Assembly: GCF_000236865.1 (NCBI RefSeq)
Contig: NZ_HE611014.1
Span: 417,662-481,661, forward strand
From: Senegalimassilia anaerobia JC110
GTDB taxonomy: Bacteria; Actinomycetota; Coriobacteriia; Coriobacteriales; Eggerthellaceae
DNA length: 64,000 nucleotides
Direction of reading: 5' to 3'
Below are positions 27,444 through 33,457 of this stretch, piece by piece; the first letter of the stretch is position 1, and every line of letters begins with the position of its first letter. The translations under genes and the position numbers were made by a program. A model generated the notes under the pieces. The model saw only the letters and a program-made list of their open reading frames with translations, ran no database searches and had not been told where the DNA came from.

Positions 27444-27612
27444 TGCCTAAGCTGTGGCGAAGTTAGCCGAATATCGGATGCATTATTGCGCTTCCCTGAT
27501 TCGTGCAATAGCATATTCAGCTACTGTTAATCACAACGAAATCGGAGTCGCATGTCTCGTCGCCAAGCCACCTCACGCATCCTCTTCATCTGCCACGGCA
27601 ACATCTGCAGGT
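27444..27612 (+). repeat. Left 169-bp boundary repeat of the genomic island
   Basis: This 169-bp segment matches 32798-32966 without gaps, with seven differences, all transitions. It consists of about 108 bp of upstream region and the first 20 codons of the phosphatase gene whose intact copy is at 32906. It marks the left edge of a 5.35-kb insertion. Confidence 0.93.
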
Positions 27613-27614: not shown

Positions 27615-27845
27615 CGGAGAATCAGCAGGTCAATTGCGGTTTCGGGTCTTCTCTGAGTGAAATCTACACTTTTTTACGCCGGTGGAGTCCCACTAACGAC
27701 AAATCTTGAATTAATGCATATGGTCTCTCGTCGAATCATTTAGCTTGCCCATCGTTTGTTTCTCGAAAGACGCATGGAGAAATATATAATGATTTATACG
27801 TATACAATTATCACCCATGACAAAGAATTGAACGCGAGAGGTTAA
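27613..27845. promoter_or_regulatory. AT-rich leader of the island genes
   Basis: Base composition falls sharply here compared with the host. It contains TATAAT at 27785-27790 and a TATACGTATA palindrome nearby, both suitable for a promoter, but no clear -35 box at normal spacing. AGAGGT precedes the methyltransferase ATG. Read-through from the duplicated phosphatase promoter could also supply transcripts. Confidence 0.45.
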
Positions 27846-28700
27846 ATGTCGGATCATTCCCTAAATAGAGGCTTCAAACCGTTCTTGCGGTGGGCTGGCG
27901 GAAAGAACTGGCTAATAAAATACCTACCGGATTTGATCAAAGACCTTGATTTCAATAATTACCATGAACCGTTTTTCGGCGGTGGCTCTGTGTTCTTTGC
28001 TTTATCTCCAGATGAGGCAATCCTCTCCGACATCAACGAAGAGCTCATTAATGCATACGTGGAAGTTCGTGATAACGTTGAGAGCGTAATCGAGATTATT
28101 GACGGATGGGACGTAAATGAGGATCAGTATTACGCCATTCGGTCGGAAGAACCAGATGATGCGATACAAAGAGCTGCCCGATTTATTTATCTGAACAGAA
28201 CATCGTTCAATGGCATTTATCGAGTCAACCGTAAAGGTCAATATAACGTGCCTTACGGGAAAAATGACGACTATAGATTTGATTTTCAACGAATTCGTCA
28301 TGCGAGTGAGGCCCTTCAGGGGGCAAAGCTATTCACGCGTTCCTTTGAGGAGTCGCTAAAGGATGTAAAAGCCAGAGATCTTGTATTTCTCGATCCGCCA
28401 TATACGGTTGCGCACAACAACAATGGCTTTATCGAATACAACAAAAAGCTCTTCTCTCTCGAAGATCAATTTAAATTGAAGAATTGTATCGATGTTCTTT
28501 CTGGGCTCGGCGCCTTCTATATTCTTACGAACGCCCATCATGAAGTAATTGATGGCTTGTTTTCTCCCGGCAGTATCAAACTGGCTGTTTCTCGAAGCAG
28601 CACTTTAGGCGGTCGTAATGCTCGTCGAGGGAACACTCAGGAATACATATTTACTAATATTCCTCAAGCGAGGATAGGGGATATCGATGGACTGGCTTAG
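27846..28700 (+). CDS. D12-class (Dam-like) DNA adenine-N6 methyltransferase
   Basis: The 284-residue protein is a D12-family adenine methyltransferase related to Dam and DpnM. Motifs in order are RWAGGK (residues 15-20), the SAM-binding EPFFGGGS (41-48) and the catalytic DPPY (183-186). The length is normal for the family. Target sequence cannot be deduced. The gene is AT-rich with host-atypical codons, so it was acquired. Its stop overlaps by 14 bp the start of the nuclease-DGQHR gene, indicating translational coupling. In that setting it probably protects host DNA, or marks it for the partner. Confidence 0.92.
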   Translation: MSDHSLNRGFKPFLRWAGGKNWLIKYLPDLIKDLDFNNYHEPFFGGGSVFFALSPDEAILSDINEELINAYVEVRDNVESVIEIIDGWDVNEDQYYAIRSEEPDDAIQRAARFIYLNRTSFNGIYRVNRKGQYNVPYGKNDDYRFDFQRIRHASEALQGAKLFTRSFEESLKDVKARDLVFLDPPYTVAHNNNGFIEYNKKLFSLEDQFKLKNCIDVLSGLGAFYILTNAHHEVIDGLFSPGSIKLAVSRSSTLGGRNARRGNTQEYIFTNIPQARIGDIDGLA

Positions 28701-30978
28701 TGAAATCGTCTCTGGGAAAGAGCTGGATTCCGCCAAACGCGAACGGACAAAGGACTATGTTTTTACAACACAGGTCGAGGAAGCTCAAGCTCGATATGAG
28801 TCGGAGGGCTGGGAATTTGACCGAACGCTCGCAAGAAGGCGAGTAAAACTAAAAAAGAAAAAACCCGCTGATGAGATCTTTGAGAATCGTGTTTGGACCA
28901 TGCTGTATAAGCTTGGCTTTTCTCACATGAACAGAGACAGATTGTTTTCTGTTGACTATTCCCAAAACGGAAGATCTTCAAGCAAGCAGATTGATGTCCT
29001 TGCAGCGGATAACGAAATCCTTCTGTTAATCGAGTGTAAATGCGCAAACAGACCAGGTACTCAGAGTAACTTTAAGACCGATATCGAAGCAATCGCTGAT
29101 TACAGGCGACATGTGTTTAACCAGCTTAAGCAAAAATTTCCAACCCAGAAAATGGTTTGTGTATTCGCAACAAGCAATTATGAGCTAGGTGACAAGAACA
29201 AGGACTTGCTTGCAGCAAAAAACATCAAGCATTTTGATGAAACCGCCATCGAATATTATGAGGCTCTTGGGAAAACGTTAGGAAAGGCAGCGAGATATCA
29301 GCTGCTAGGTAACCTATTCGCTAATCAAGAGATAACCGGGATGGATACAAGGGTTGCAGCAATCAAAGGGAAAATGGGAGGGCGTACTTACTACTCGTTT
29401 TCGATTGAGCCCTCCAAGCTTCTTAAGATGTCATACATCCTCCATCGAAATAGCGCTCAACCTGATGAAGTCTTGCCTACATATCAAAGGCTTATCAAGA
29501 AGGGACGCCTGAAGGATATTCAAAAATTCGTTAACGACGGAGGTTTTTTTCCGAACTCCATCATTGTCAATGTCGCAAATGAATCGCCGCGTTTTGAGCA
29601 AGCGCCGAAAAAGAATCAACCAAACGGCTCTGATTCGAGAATCGGAATATTGGAGCTTCCTAAGAAATATCGATCTATTTACGTTATCGATGGCCAGCAT
29701 AGGCTTTACGGATATGCAGATAGCGATCATGCTGAATCAGACATTATTCCTGTTGTTGCTTTCTACGATATGGATAATACTGAGCAAATAAAGATGTTTA
29801 TGGACATCAATGAAAAGCAGAAAGCCGTTCCTCAGACATTGCGGACTACGCTAAATGCTGATTTGCTTTGGGATGCAGAGGATGTTTCCGATAGGCAAAA
29901 AGCACTGCGCTCACGAATTGCGCAAGACCTTGGAGAAATTAAACGTTCTCCATTATACGATAGAGTCATTGTTGGAGAAAATACAAAAGGGCCCCATCGT
30001 TCGATAACACTTCCGTTTATTGACAACGCTATTGATAAAGCTGGATATCTGGGTAAATACCAAAAAGGGTCCATGCTCCAAGATGGCCTTTTCGAATACG
30101 GAAATATCGACATGTCTTACAAGAGAATTTTCAATTATTTGATTGGTTGCCTGGCGTATGTAAGAGACGCTAGCCCTGATGAATGGGAGCGCTCGAACAA
30201 GGAAGGGGCCGTATTCACTGTTAATGTAGGCATATATGCCCTCATTCGTATCTGCGCGGACATCCTGCAGCATCTTCGCGATTCCAATGCAATCGATATT
30301 AGGAATACCGAAATAGATGATTTGGTCGAGGATGCATCATTTTATTTGTTGCCATTGGTGAATCATATAGAACATCTTGATTGCGAACAGCGGGATTCTT
30401 TTACAAAAAAATATGGAGGCAATGCTACCAAGGACTGCCATTTCAAATTCAGGAAAATCGTGCATGATGCTCATGAAGAATTTGCGCCTGAGGGGCTAAG
30501 CGACTGGATAAGAGACAATAGCATGCAATACAACGAAGATTCGATTTCGAAATTGACCGCAATTGAAGAACGCATCGCTAACGATTTTGAGAAGCTCCTG
30601 AGCCAGGAATACGGCACCGATTGGTTGCGTATCGGTGTCGACAAGCCAGTTTTTAGCGCGCTTAACAAACGTGCGTCTGATCGGGAATTCGACACGGGAG
30701 TTAAACAAGAGCCATGGCGTGAGGTGACGCTGGAGGAATGTCGCAAAGTTGCAACATGGTCTCAGAATTGGAGCAGGCTGTTTAAGATCTATTTCGAGCG
30801 ACTTATTGGTGACGGAAAGGCGCATAACAAGACCGATTCTACTGAATGGATGTCGAACCTGAGTACAGTAAGAAAGCAGCTGCTTACCACGAAAAACTAT
30901 AGCGTGAGCCATGATCAACATGAGCTTATATGCGACTACTATGACAAGCTTCAGTCATTGGACATCATGGCTCTGTAG
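28687..30978 (+). CDS. PD-(D/E)XK nuclease-like and DGQHR-domain fusion protein
   Basis: This 763-residue protein has two recognisable parts. Residues about 60-180 look like a PD-(D/E)XK endonuclease core: Asp103 in QIDVLAAD and Glu116-x-Lys118 in LLLIECKC, preceded by a charged basic segment (LARRRVKLKKKK). Residues about 230-400 carry a DGQHR domain, with the signature at 335-339 in YVIDGQHRLYG and a following MFMDINEKQKAV. That domain is known from DndB of DNA phosphorothioation and DpdB of 7-deazaguanine DNA modification. The C-terminal 350 residues are helical and unassigned. With the overlapping adenine methyltransferase it suggests a two-gene modification/restriction system. The nuclease assignment rests on motif spacing only, and the function is inferred. 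Confidence 0.78.
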   Translation: MDWLSEIVSGKELDSAKRERTKDYVFTTQVEEAQARYESEGWEFDRTLARRRVKLKKKKPADEIFENRVWTMLYKLGFSHMNRDRLFSVDYSQNGRSSSKQIDVLAADNEILLLIECKCANRPGTQSNFKTDIEAIADYRRHVFNQLKQKFPTQKMVCVFATSNYELGDKNKDLLAAKNIKHFDETAIEYYEALGKTLGKAARYQLLGNLFANQEITGMDTRVAAIKGKMGGRTYYSFSIEPSKLLKMSYILHRNSAQPDEVLPTYQRLIKKGRLKDIQKFVNDGGFFPNSIIVNVANESPRFEQAPKKNQPNGSDSRIGILELPKKYRSIYVIDGQHRLYGYADSDHAESDIIPVVAFYDMDNTEQIKMFMDINEKQKAVPQTLRTTLNADLLWDAEDVSDRQKALRSRIAQDLGEIKRSPLYDRVIVGENTKGPHRSITLPFIDNAIDKAGYLGKYQKGSMLQDGLFEYGNIDMSYKRIFNYLIGCLAYVRDASPDEWERSNKEGAVFTVNVGIYALIRICADILQHLRDSNAIDIRNTEIDDLVEDASFYLLPLVNHIEHLDCEQRDSFTKKYGGNATKDCHFKFRKIVHDAHEEFAPEGLSDWIRDNSMQYNEDSISKLTAIEERIANDFEKLLSQEYGTDWLRIGVDKPVFSALNKRASDREFDTGVKQEPWREVTLEECRKVATWSQNWSRLFKIYFERLIGDGKAHNKTDSTEWMSNLSTVRKQLLTTKNYSVSHDQHELICDYYDKLQSLDIMAL

Positions 30979-31069: not shown

Positions 31070-31220
31070 AGACCAGCTCGCGACTCATCGCGTTGATGCG
31101 GGGGTGTTTTATGTCAAGCAGGCAATGAACAAAGGGGGATGCTGACAAAATTCCGTACCAACTAGGTGTCAGGGAGGTGGAGTGGGCATGATGAACTGGA
31201 CACCAGGTTAAGAGCGAAAG

Positions 31221-31511
31221 GTGTTCAAGACGACCCAAAGAAGAAAGCGATACGACAGGCAGTTTAAGGTCTCGGCGGCAAAGGTGGTCCTGTCCGGGGA
31301 GATGACGGTCAAAGACCTATCGGAGGAGCTCGGCACAAAGGACTCGACGCTGAGAAGATGGGCCCGCGAATATGAGGAGATGGGAGACGACGCGTTCCCT
31401 GGAAACGGCTCTCCGAAGATCGACAAGGACTACGAGATCGCGAAGCTCAAGAAGAAGGTCGAGGAGCTCGAGCGCGAGAACGAGATGCTAAAAAACTCCG
31501 GGCTTTCTTGA
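31221..31511 (+). CDS. IS3-family transposase OrfA
   Basis: The 96-residue protein has the N-terminal helix-turn-helix of IS3 OrfA proteins (RRKRYDRQFKVSAAKVVLSG, then KDLSEELGTKDSTLRRWA) and a C-terminal leucine-zipper coiled coil (KLKKKVEELERENEMLKN). It starts with GTG at 31221. It appears intact and could bind the element's ends, although the partner OrfB is dead. Normally OrfA-OrfB is made by programmed -1 frameshifting. Confidence 0.85.
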   Translation: MFKTTQRRKRYDRQFKVSAAKVVLSGEMTVKDLSEELGTKDSTLRRWAREYEEMGDDAFPGNGSPKIDKDYEIAKLKKKVEELERENEMLKNSGLS

Positions 31512-31519
31512 GTCAAGAC

Positions 31520-32355
31520 CATGCGCGAGGTTCGGGTTCCTCGAAGAGCATAGGGGCGAGATCGGCCCCATCAAGAAGGCATGCGGGCTGATGAAGGTCT
31601 CGAATCCGGTTTCTACGAGTATCTCTCCCGGAAGAAATCAAACGCCCAGATAGAGCGAGCGGCACAAGGGCCGCTACGGCTGCCGGCGCATCGACCGCGA
31701 ACTGCGAAAAAGCGGCATCGCCGTGAGCGAGAAGCGCGTGCTCCATATCATGCAGAAGCTCGGGCTCGCCGGAAGGGGCGCGGCCCGAAAACGCCGCATC
31801 CAGAAGAAGGTCGAGCCGGGAGACCCTCGGCTGAACCTGGCAGAGCGCGCTTTCTCCGCTGGCGGGCGCGACAGGCTTCGGGCGGGCGGCATCGCCCACA
31901 TGCCCGCAAGAGAAGGGCGGCTCTATCTCGCAGCCGCGATAGACGCCTTCTCCCGCAAGGTCGTGGGCTGGTCGATGTCCGGGCGCATCGCCGAGAAGGT
32001 CGCGATCGACGCGATAGGGCAGGCGGTTGGCAGGGAGGGTCCGCCAGACGACGGCGGCCTCGTCTTCCATGACGACCAAGGCGCGCAGCACGCCTCCCGT
32101 TCCTTCCAGCGATGCCTGGACTCGCATGGCATAGCCCAGTCGGCATCAAGGCCCGGCACGCCGCCGGGCAACGCGGTGGCCGAGCCGTTCTTCAAGACGC
32201 TGAAAAGGGAATTGGCGGAAGAGAGGGGTTATGGGACGAGGGACGAGGCCGAGCAGGACATCTTCAAGCACATAGAGCCCTGTTGCAATATGGTGCGCAT
32301 ACATTCCGCCTTGGGCTACATGTCTCCAGTGGAATACGAGCGGCAATACGCTTGA
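31520..32355 (+). pseudogene. IS3-family transposase OrfB, frameshifted and inactive
   Basis: Similarity to IS3 OrfB runs through three frames: EEHRGEIGPIKKACGLMKVS, then GFYEYLSRKKSNAQIE, then from about 31660 HKGRYGCRRIDRELRKSG, which stays open to 32355. The catalytic core keeps the second Asp (FHDDQGAQ) and the Glu (NAVAEPFFKTLKRE). The first Asp, expected in a D-I-T type motif, reads GGIAHMP near 31886. Two frameshifts plus the missing Asp make it inactive. Confidence 0.8.
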
Positions 32356-32405
32356 GGATCCTTAAAAGAAAGTCCAGTTTATCCTTCCCACTCCAAGGAC
32401 GTCAC

Positions 32406-32797: not shown

Positions 32798-32966
32798 TGC
32801 CTAAGCTGTGACGAAGTTAGCCGAATATTGGATGCATTATTGCGCTTCCTTGATTCGTGCAATAGCATATTCAGCTACTGCTAATCACAACGAAATCGGA
32901 GTCGCATGTCTCGTCGCCAAGCTATCTCACGCATCCTCTTCATTTGCCACGGCAACATCTGCAGGT
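32798..32966 (+). repeat. Right 169-bp boundary repeat of the genomic island
   Basis: This is the partner of 27444-27612 (162 of 169 positions identical by manual alignment). Here the repeat runs on into the complete phosphatase gene, so this copy supplies the functional promoter and 5' end. Confidence 0.93.
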
Positions 32967-33457
32967 CGACCATGGCCCAGTTCGTGATGCAGGACCTGGT
33001 GAACAAGGCAGGGCTGGCCGACGTTCTGCGCGTCGATTCCGCCGCCACCACCAACGATGAAATCGGGCATCCGCCGCATCATGGCACGGTCGACAAGCTC
33101 AAGCAGGTGGGCGTGCCGGTGCTGCCGCATCGCGCCCGCAAGGTCCGCGCCGACGAGTACGACGAGTGGGACCTGTTCGTGTATATGGATGACGAGAACG
33201 AGCGCCATCTGAGTCGCATCTTCGGAAGCGACCCGGAGGCGAAGTGCGTGCGTCTGCTCGCGTTCGCGCCCGGTGCGGGGCTGGTCGGCGAGGACGGGAA
33301 GGTCTTGCCCGACGCGCAGGACGCCCATGCGATCGCGCAAGCCGGCGCGAATGCCGCCGACGTGGCCGATCCCTGGTTCACCGGCAACTTCGACGACACC
33401 TACCGCGACGTGTTGGCCGGCTGCAAAGGCCTTCTGACCTGGTGCCGGGCGCAATAG
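32906..33457 (+). CDS. Low-molecular-weight protein tyrosine phosphatase
   Basis: The 183-residue protein has the complete signature: P-loop CHGNICRS with catalytic Cys14 and Arg20, and the general-acid loop DPWFTGNFDDTY near the C-terminus. Such enzymes dephosphorylate protein tyrosine, often in exopolysaccharide control; some relatives reduce arsenate. It is longer than the usual 150-160 residues because of an insert around residues 110-145. Its first 20 codons and upstream region are duplicated at 27444-27612, making it the apparent insertion target of the island. A strong hairpin follows. Confidence 0.92.
   Translation: MSRRQAISRILFICHGNICRSTMAQFVMQDLVNKAGLADVLRVDSAATTNDEIGHPPHHGTVDKLKQVGVPVLPHRARKVRADEYDEWDLFVYMDDENERHLSRIFGSDPEAKCVRLLAFAPGAGLVGEDGKVLPDAQDAHAIAQAGANAADVADPWFTGNFDDTYRDVLAGCKGLLTWCRAQ

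Follow-up and report, generated by a model that had tools for sequence, protein, structure and literature searches.

Several described systems couple a ParB-like nucleotide-binding domain to DNA modification, to a nuclease or to both. In SspE, a ParB-like GTPase with a DGQQR motif is joined to a nuclease, and the self mark raises the rate of GTP hydrolysis and licenses the cutting of unmarked DNA (PMC13251355). GmrSD has a motif related to DGQHR, and the DGQQR of GmrS has been recognised as akin (PMC4619093). DpdB has been described as a ParB-like ATPase (PMC12839542), and binding of ATP and GTP has been described for a DndB-like protein (PMC12704722). More broadly, a general proposal of 2012 coupled immunity to suicide, with HEPN, restriction endonuclease and ParB domains in restriction-modification (R-M) loci (PMC3506569). 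Here we describe a gene pair in a stretch of 64,000 nucleotides from Senegalimassilia anaerobia JC110 (contig NZ_HE611014.1, positions 417,662 to 481,661; hereafter the window), in which an adenine DNA methylase gene overlaps a gene for a 763-residue protein with a DGQHR motif (hereafter the DGQHR protein). We put at about even the chances that the pair is a mobile R-M-like defence module whose DGQHR protein is a methylation-status-gated effector, driven by nucleoside triphosphates (NTPs) and armed with nonspecific nucleases, and not a classical site-specific enzyme.

The end of the methylase gene and the start of the DGQHR gene have 14 bp in common (28687-28700), with a purine-rich stretch upstream of the second ATG (Table 1). 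The methylase, the sole D12 methylase encoded in its genome, matched the MethyltransfD12 family of Pfam (PF02086, 1e-47) and the dam family of NCBIfam (TIGR00571, 1.9e-62), and its closest solved structure was DpnM (2dpm, 1.5e-51). Aligned with DpnM and Escherichia coli Dam, it shares the NG(I/L)YR.N..G.(Y/F)NVP.G motif of the GATC family; because of this motif and the DpnII association described below, it is probably GATC-specific. A previous sequence-only reading had reported the overlapping open reading frames (ORFs), the DPPY and FFGGGS motifs of the methylase and, in its partner, DGQHR at residues 335-339 and the PD-(D/E)XK-like residues Asp103, Glu116 and Lys118, all of which are present. 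It had also staked its proposal on a nuclease fold within residues 50-200 and on a recurring methylase partner, and both were borne out, with a PD-(D/E)XK fold at residues 61-191 of a predicted structure and a methylase beside most homologues.

Using a scan of GTDB genomes, we identified 346 relatives, of which the best 80 by similarity were used together with 24 viral contigs, nine of these with long matches; 90 homologous loci were tabulated, giving an alignment of 91 sequences with the window protein. The pair recurs in several bacterial phyla and about 84 of the 90 loci have an adjacent methylase, with the two genes abutting or overlapping (median gap of -4 nt). In 76 loci it is of the window's Dam-family D12 type at position +-1 or -2, nearly always upstream on the same strand, while a second D12 lineage lies no more than three genes away in seven and an MT-A70 methylase accompanies one. 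Among the remainder, three loci have a radical S-adenosylmethionine (SAM) gene and no methylase, one ends at a contig edge and two (L051 and L075) have a methylase four to five genes distant. Four homologues from evenly drawn genomes gave a similar picture, three adjoining a GATC-type D12 methylase and one adjoining a radical-SAM-like gene, the latter judged by eye. Because the methylase neighbour recurs in most loci, the pairing is not due to chance; a single fixed methylase partner, in turn, is ruled out by the loci with the second D12 lineage, MT-A70 or radical SAM. In L051 (4762-12253), where the D12 methylase is five genes upstream, two proteins of 574 and 582 aa are encoded between it and the DGQHR gene.

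To assign domains, we built an AlphaFold2 model of the 763-residue protein with 81 aligned homologues (mean predicted local distance difference test (pLDDT) score of 91.5; predicted template modelling score of 0.79). A phmmer search against PDB sequences found no match and Foldseek with the whole model returned nothing with E < 0.001, and fold assignments therefore come from VIA-align, run as a second look where Foldseek alone fell short. Residues 61-191 matched AF1548 (1y88; Z = 12.6, 2.1 Å over 114 residues), followed by Can2 (9.7), 1xmx (9.4), Card1 (9.2), EndoMS (8.4) and FokI (7.7). The model has the alpha-beta-beta-beta-alpha-beta core with D...ExK that defines the PD-(D/E)XK superfamily, E66 is near-invariant, and the PADLOC model CARF4--CARF_PDDEXK matched residues 65-122 (2e-4). 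The central region matched TIGR03187 over residues 225-527 (4.4e-52; 177.5 bits against a cut-off of 58.85) and the DndB family PF14072 (1.3e-17). Within it, the DGQHR motif lies in a ParB-type nucleotide-binding domain of about residues 228-379 in the model, with residues 228-393 matching nucleotide-bound ParB (7bm8, Z = 8.0), PadC (8.0), Noc (7.8) and ATP-bound sulfiredoxin (5.2).

The third domain, which the sequence-only reading had not included, is a C-terminal HEPN-type domain. In addition to the Csm6 match of the whole model (Table 1), a separate model of the L068 homologue's C-terminal domain (pLDDT 86.8) had HEPN proteins in all of its ten top VIA-align rows (Z = 4.2-8.5), among them AbiF (8.5), Csm6' (7.3), 1wwp (6.5), yeast Swt1 (6.5), other Csm6 proteins and HepT-type toxins. 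Each of these scores is middling taken singly, and Foldseek with the isolated domain gave all-helical noise only, ranking unrelated helical proteins first for L068. Five of ten C-termini weakly matched the Pfam family HEPN_Swt1 (best 5.5e-4), and homologues have an RNxxxH motif at the position expected of HEPN. The catalytic RxxxxH is absent from the window protein.

The effector of L078, which has a GATC-type methylase, is closely related to those of L073 and L074, whose methylases belong to the other D12 lineage (52-92% identity by region), and the genomes of L073 and L074 have no D12 methylase of the window's type. Between the L078 effector and those of L073 and L074, there was no local hot spot of change beyond the level of the L073-L074 comparison, and on these few pairs we rejected the idea that the DGQHR protein has a domain for sequence recognition. 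Because the methylase type changes without a local change in the effector, the few sequence pairs suggest an effector that has no recognition domain matched to its partner and is instead cued by the methylase, by the mark or by a complex.

Homologues also occur inside larger operons. In L052, L059 and L066, the DGQHR gene is flanked by the genes for an N6_N4 methylase and DpnII (PF04556, 4.5e-95 in L052), with a DpnM-like methylase gene ahead, and L075 has this set of genes close by. In L073 and L074, it adjoins the D12 methylase and a PtuA-like ATPase, with an HNH gene at least in L074. In nine Firmicute-type loci (L020, L030, L032, L034, L035, L037 and L042-L044), it is the last gene of a six-gene DISARM-like operon encoding a UvrD-like protein, a DrmA-like protein (3e-137), a DrmB-like protein, a NERD-helicase, a Dam-type D12 methylase and the DGQHR protein. 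Longer stretches of L030 and L034 (L118:10607-19824 and L119:1-9581) contained no extra gene of DrmC size, and the operon is possibly an unnamed DISARM subtype. Around the window pair, there was no drmA or drmB among the ORFs as read.

These observations bear directly on classical type II-like restriction, in which the PD-(D/E)XK protein itself would cut unmethylated GATC and the methylase would shield the host. The constant methylase neighbour, the PD-(D/E)XK fold and the intact D103, E116 and K118 are what such a system would have, but we regard it as improbable: AF1548 and the nonspecific, ligand-gated Can2 and Card1 are among the nearest folds, a switch of methylase type leaves no local trace in the DGQHR protein, that protein adjoins DpnII itself in some loci and sits in DISARM-like operons in others, PADLOC REase_II models were unmatched, and the nuclease site has been repeatedly lost with the methylase kept, which never happened to DGQHR. 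The sequence-only reading had proposed that the protein senses DNA status and cuts DNA left unmethylated by its partner, or is itself regulated by methylation; sensing or regulation by methylation is the stronger half of that proposal, and a simple cutter of sites its own methylase left bare lacks support.

All 91 sequences of the alignment share DGQHR, YQR (266-268) and F371-x-x-I-N375 without exception, while the exact D-E-K triad is found in 65 and RxxxxH in 50 of the 90 homologues (window excluded). Outside the DISARM-like loci, 34 homologues have both nuclease sites, 31 have PD-(D/E)XK only, 16 have HEPN only and none has neither (Fisher p = 0.0003, with ancestry ignored though the rows are related). 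Both sites are lost in all nine DISARM-like loci. Parsimony on the tree placed seven to nine losses of PD-(D/E)XK on branches with an intact HEPN motif and one on branches without it, the latter being the DISARM-like clade.

One reading of this arrangement is a guard or suicide device, in which the methylase or normal methylation restrains the DGQHR protein and its DNase or RNase fires once the methylase is blocked or outrun by an invader, much as PrrC acts for EcoprrI. Effectors of suicide or dormancy typically have a HEPN-type domain or a nuclease like Can2/Card1, the protein is found with complete R-M or DISARM-like operons already able to cut DNA, and the general hypothesis of immunity-suicide coupling (PMC3506569) would accommodate it. 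We still think it unlikely, as the HEPN motif is missing from nearly half of the copies, including that of the window, the DISARM-like clade lacks both sites, and free exchange of methylases is something a tight protein-protein guard would resist.

The invariance of DGQHR as the single core of the family could instead indicate a helper or regulator of modification, either aiding the modifying enzyme in the manner of DpdB (PMC12839542) or limiting methylase expression or activity in the manner of DndB (PMC4507180). Consistent with this, L004 and L005 pair the protein with a second DGQHR protein and radical SAM. Most homologues nonetheless retain a PD-(D/E)XK or HEPN site, and no DNA-binding helix-turn-helix (HTH) domain was seen. 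To our knowledge, Dam-type methylases require no ATP helper, which further counts against a role that we consider quite improbable. As a separate observation, homologues without a methylase adjoin radical-SAM proteins in L004 (5992-12490), L005 (6004-12708), L092 (9896-13421) and L112, and a HATPase-type ATP-binding protein is also present in L004 and L005; this set may be a different DNA-modification module.

For the methylation-gated effector, we envisage the following sequence of events. The methylase would place N6-methyladenine on host DNA, with GATC as the most likely site, and the ParB/Srx-type domain would bind and probably hydrolyse a nucleotide and would read the methylation status of DNA or of a methylase-DNA complex. 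A conformational change would then license the attached nucleases, namely a PD-(D/E)XK DNase, joined in many relatives by a HEPN-type RNase. The methylase and its mark, and not the effector, would supply sequence specificity, which would account for the exchange of methylases. Because only its PD-(D/E)XK site is intact, the predicted output of the window copy is nicking or cleavage of invading DNA. The assignment of the DGQHR domain as a switch, and of the Can2/Card1-like and HEPN-type domains as outputs, is made by analogy with SspE, GmrSD, the DndB-like protein and DpdB. What the data show is the pairing of the genes, the domain folds, the conservation and the exchange of partners; the NTPase, methylation-reading and nuclease activities and an antiphage effect are predicted.

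Several results weigh against this effector reading or limit its reach. Distances among methylases and among effectors are weakly correlated (Mantel r = 0.25), and several homologues with a degenerate PD-(D/E)XK site still have the methylase. The either-or rule for the two nuclease sites is only suggestive, because P ranges from 0.03 to 0.15, varying with the definition of loss, once ancestry is counted. The loci were picked by similarity to the window protein, and the trigger may be either the presence or the absence of methylation.

The mobility of the module is supported by its genomic setting and distribution. A second feature that the sequence-only reading did not contain is a low-GC island around the pair (43-44% GC compared to 63-67% for the genome), bounded by a 153-nt direct repeat and flanked by gltD and a low-molecular-weight phosphatase gene (32906-33457). 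The repeat copies the first codons of the phosphatase gene together with the region upstream of them. Together with the low-GC island and flanking repeats, two further lines of evidence point to mobility: homologues occur on predicted viral contigs, and the family is rare and scattered, with members in 3 of 138 genomes of the window's own family and, across four phylum samples, in well under 1% of genomes (seed genomes aside). No clean empty site could be shown, since the same-genus genome G096 has unrelated cargo at the island position, and for this reason the position may be an insertion hot spot. The G096 cargo (L117:3741-9799) comprises ~6 kb of other genes, by eye an AraC-type regulator, two ABC-type exporters and a RelE/ParE-like ORF.

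Table 1 Features of the methylase-DGQHR locus (window coordinates).
Feature	Position	Strand	Evidence and remarks
Direct repeat, left copy	27444..27596	+	153 nt, 95% identical to right copy
Possible promoter, TCGAAA-16-TATAAT	27763..27790	+	Consensus scan only; fewer matches than shuffles give
D12 adenine-N6 DNA methyltransferase, Dam/DpnM-type	27846..28700	+	284 aa; PF02086, TIGR00571 and 2dpm matches
PD-(D/E)XK - DGQHR (ParB/Srx) - HEPN-type fusion protein	28687..30978	+	763 aa; ORF, family matches, AlphaFold2 model
PD-(D/E)XK nuclease domain, residues 61-191	28867..29259	+	VIA-align fold matches; D-E-K conservation
Predicted catalytic D103	28993-28995	+	
Predicted catalytic E116-x-K118	29032-29040	+	
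DGQHR (DndB/ParB-Srx) domain, residues 225-527	29359..30267	+	TIGR03187, PF14072; ParB-type fold; predicted nucleotide-binding switch
DGQHR motif, residues 335-339	29689..29703	+	91/91 homologues
C-terminal HEPN-type domain, residues 613-763	30523..30975	+	Csm6 HEPN, Z = 5.9 (VIA-align); RxxxxH lost in window copy
IS3-like element	31178-32395		Directly behind DGQHR gene; 24-nt inverted repeats (88%), HTH transposase ORF, rve integrase ORF
Direct repeat, right copy	32798..32950	+	153 nt; bounds island

Taken together, the pair looks like an undescribed use of DNA methylation to trigger an antiviral response. If true, Dam-type methylases listed as orphan, or as type II without an endonuclease, would act with an effector that has gone unnoticed, and NTP-gated nucleases could be triggered by DNA methylation, as has so far been shown for phosphorothioation (SspE). 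Two nuclease sites per chain, with joint decay only in the DISARM-like operon, would also provide a direct test of the substitution of immunity and suicide effectors.

The sequence-only reading could name no matching system, and the libraries searched did not yield one either: PADLOC contains no model of the methylase-DGQHR pair, and the DGQHR protein had no PADLOC REase_II match and no Pfam endonuclease family above cut-off. We found no account of the pair or of the three-part protein in the open literature searched (REBASE, DefenseFinder and subscription papers were outside the search), and a YprA/DISARM survey and a ParB-fold survey, searched by term, make no mention of it. Membership of Dnd or Dpd was rejected, as DndB (TIGR03233) scored 34.5 bits against 328 and DpdB (NF041060) 75 against 300, both models matched only residues of about 220-535, and no such genes adjoin the pair. 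Those systems do share a DGQHR domain (TIGR03187) within a DNA-modification operon, but the window protein has fused nuclease domains and no dnd or dpd modification genes beside it. DpnM is the closest methylase family, and in L052, L059, L066 and L075 the DGQHR gene accompanies a DpnM-like methylase and DpnII, whereas the window has neither the DpnII endonuclease nor DpnA and its DGQHR protein is unrelated to DpnII. DISARM is linked through the nine homologues in operons with DrmA- and DrmB-like genes; it differs in that the window lacks drmA and drmB, those nine homologues have both nuclease sites decayed and no DrmC was seen in the two operons read fully.

GmrSD and BrxU type IV enzymes also fuse a ParB/Srx-type NTPase domain to a nuclease, but with DUF262 and HNH, no methylase partner and modified phage DNA as the target. 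SspABCD-SspE likewise combines a DNA-modifying partner with an effector joining a ParB-like NTPase (DGQ[H/Q]R) to a nuclease, but uses a phosphorothioate mark, the DUF262 family and a C-terminal HNH, compared to the N-terminal PD-(D/E)XK, C-terminal HEPN and methylase partner of the window pair; by Pfam, the DGQHR protein has no DUF262 or HNH and matches DndB (PF14072) instead. Can2/Card1 and Csm6, ancillary to type III CRISPR, are PD-(D/E)XK and HEPN effectors gated by a ligand-binding domain, which is a CARF sensor of cyclic oligoadenylate in those proteins and a ParB/DGQHR domain in the window protein. Tentatively, and with more doubt than confidence, we suggest an undescribed class of methylation-gated immunity in which a ParB/DGQHR switch takes the place of CARF and drives, within a single chain, a DNase like Can2/Card1 and an RNase like Csm6, coupled to exchangeable modifying enzymes and pluggable into DpnII or DISARM-like systems.

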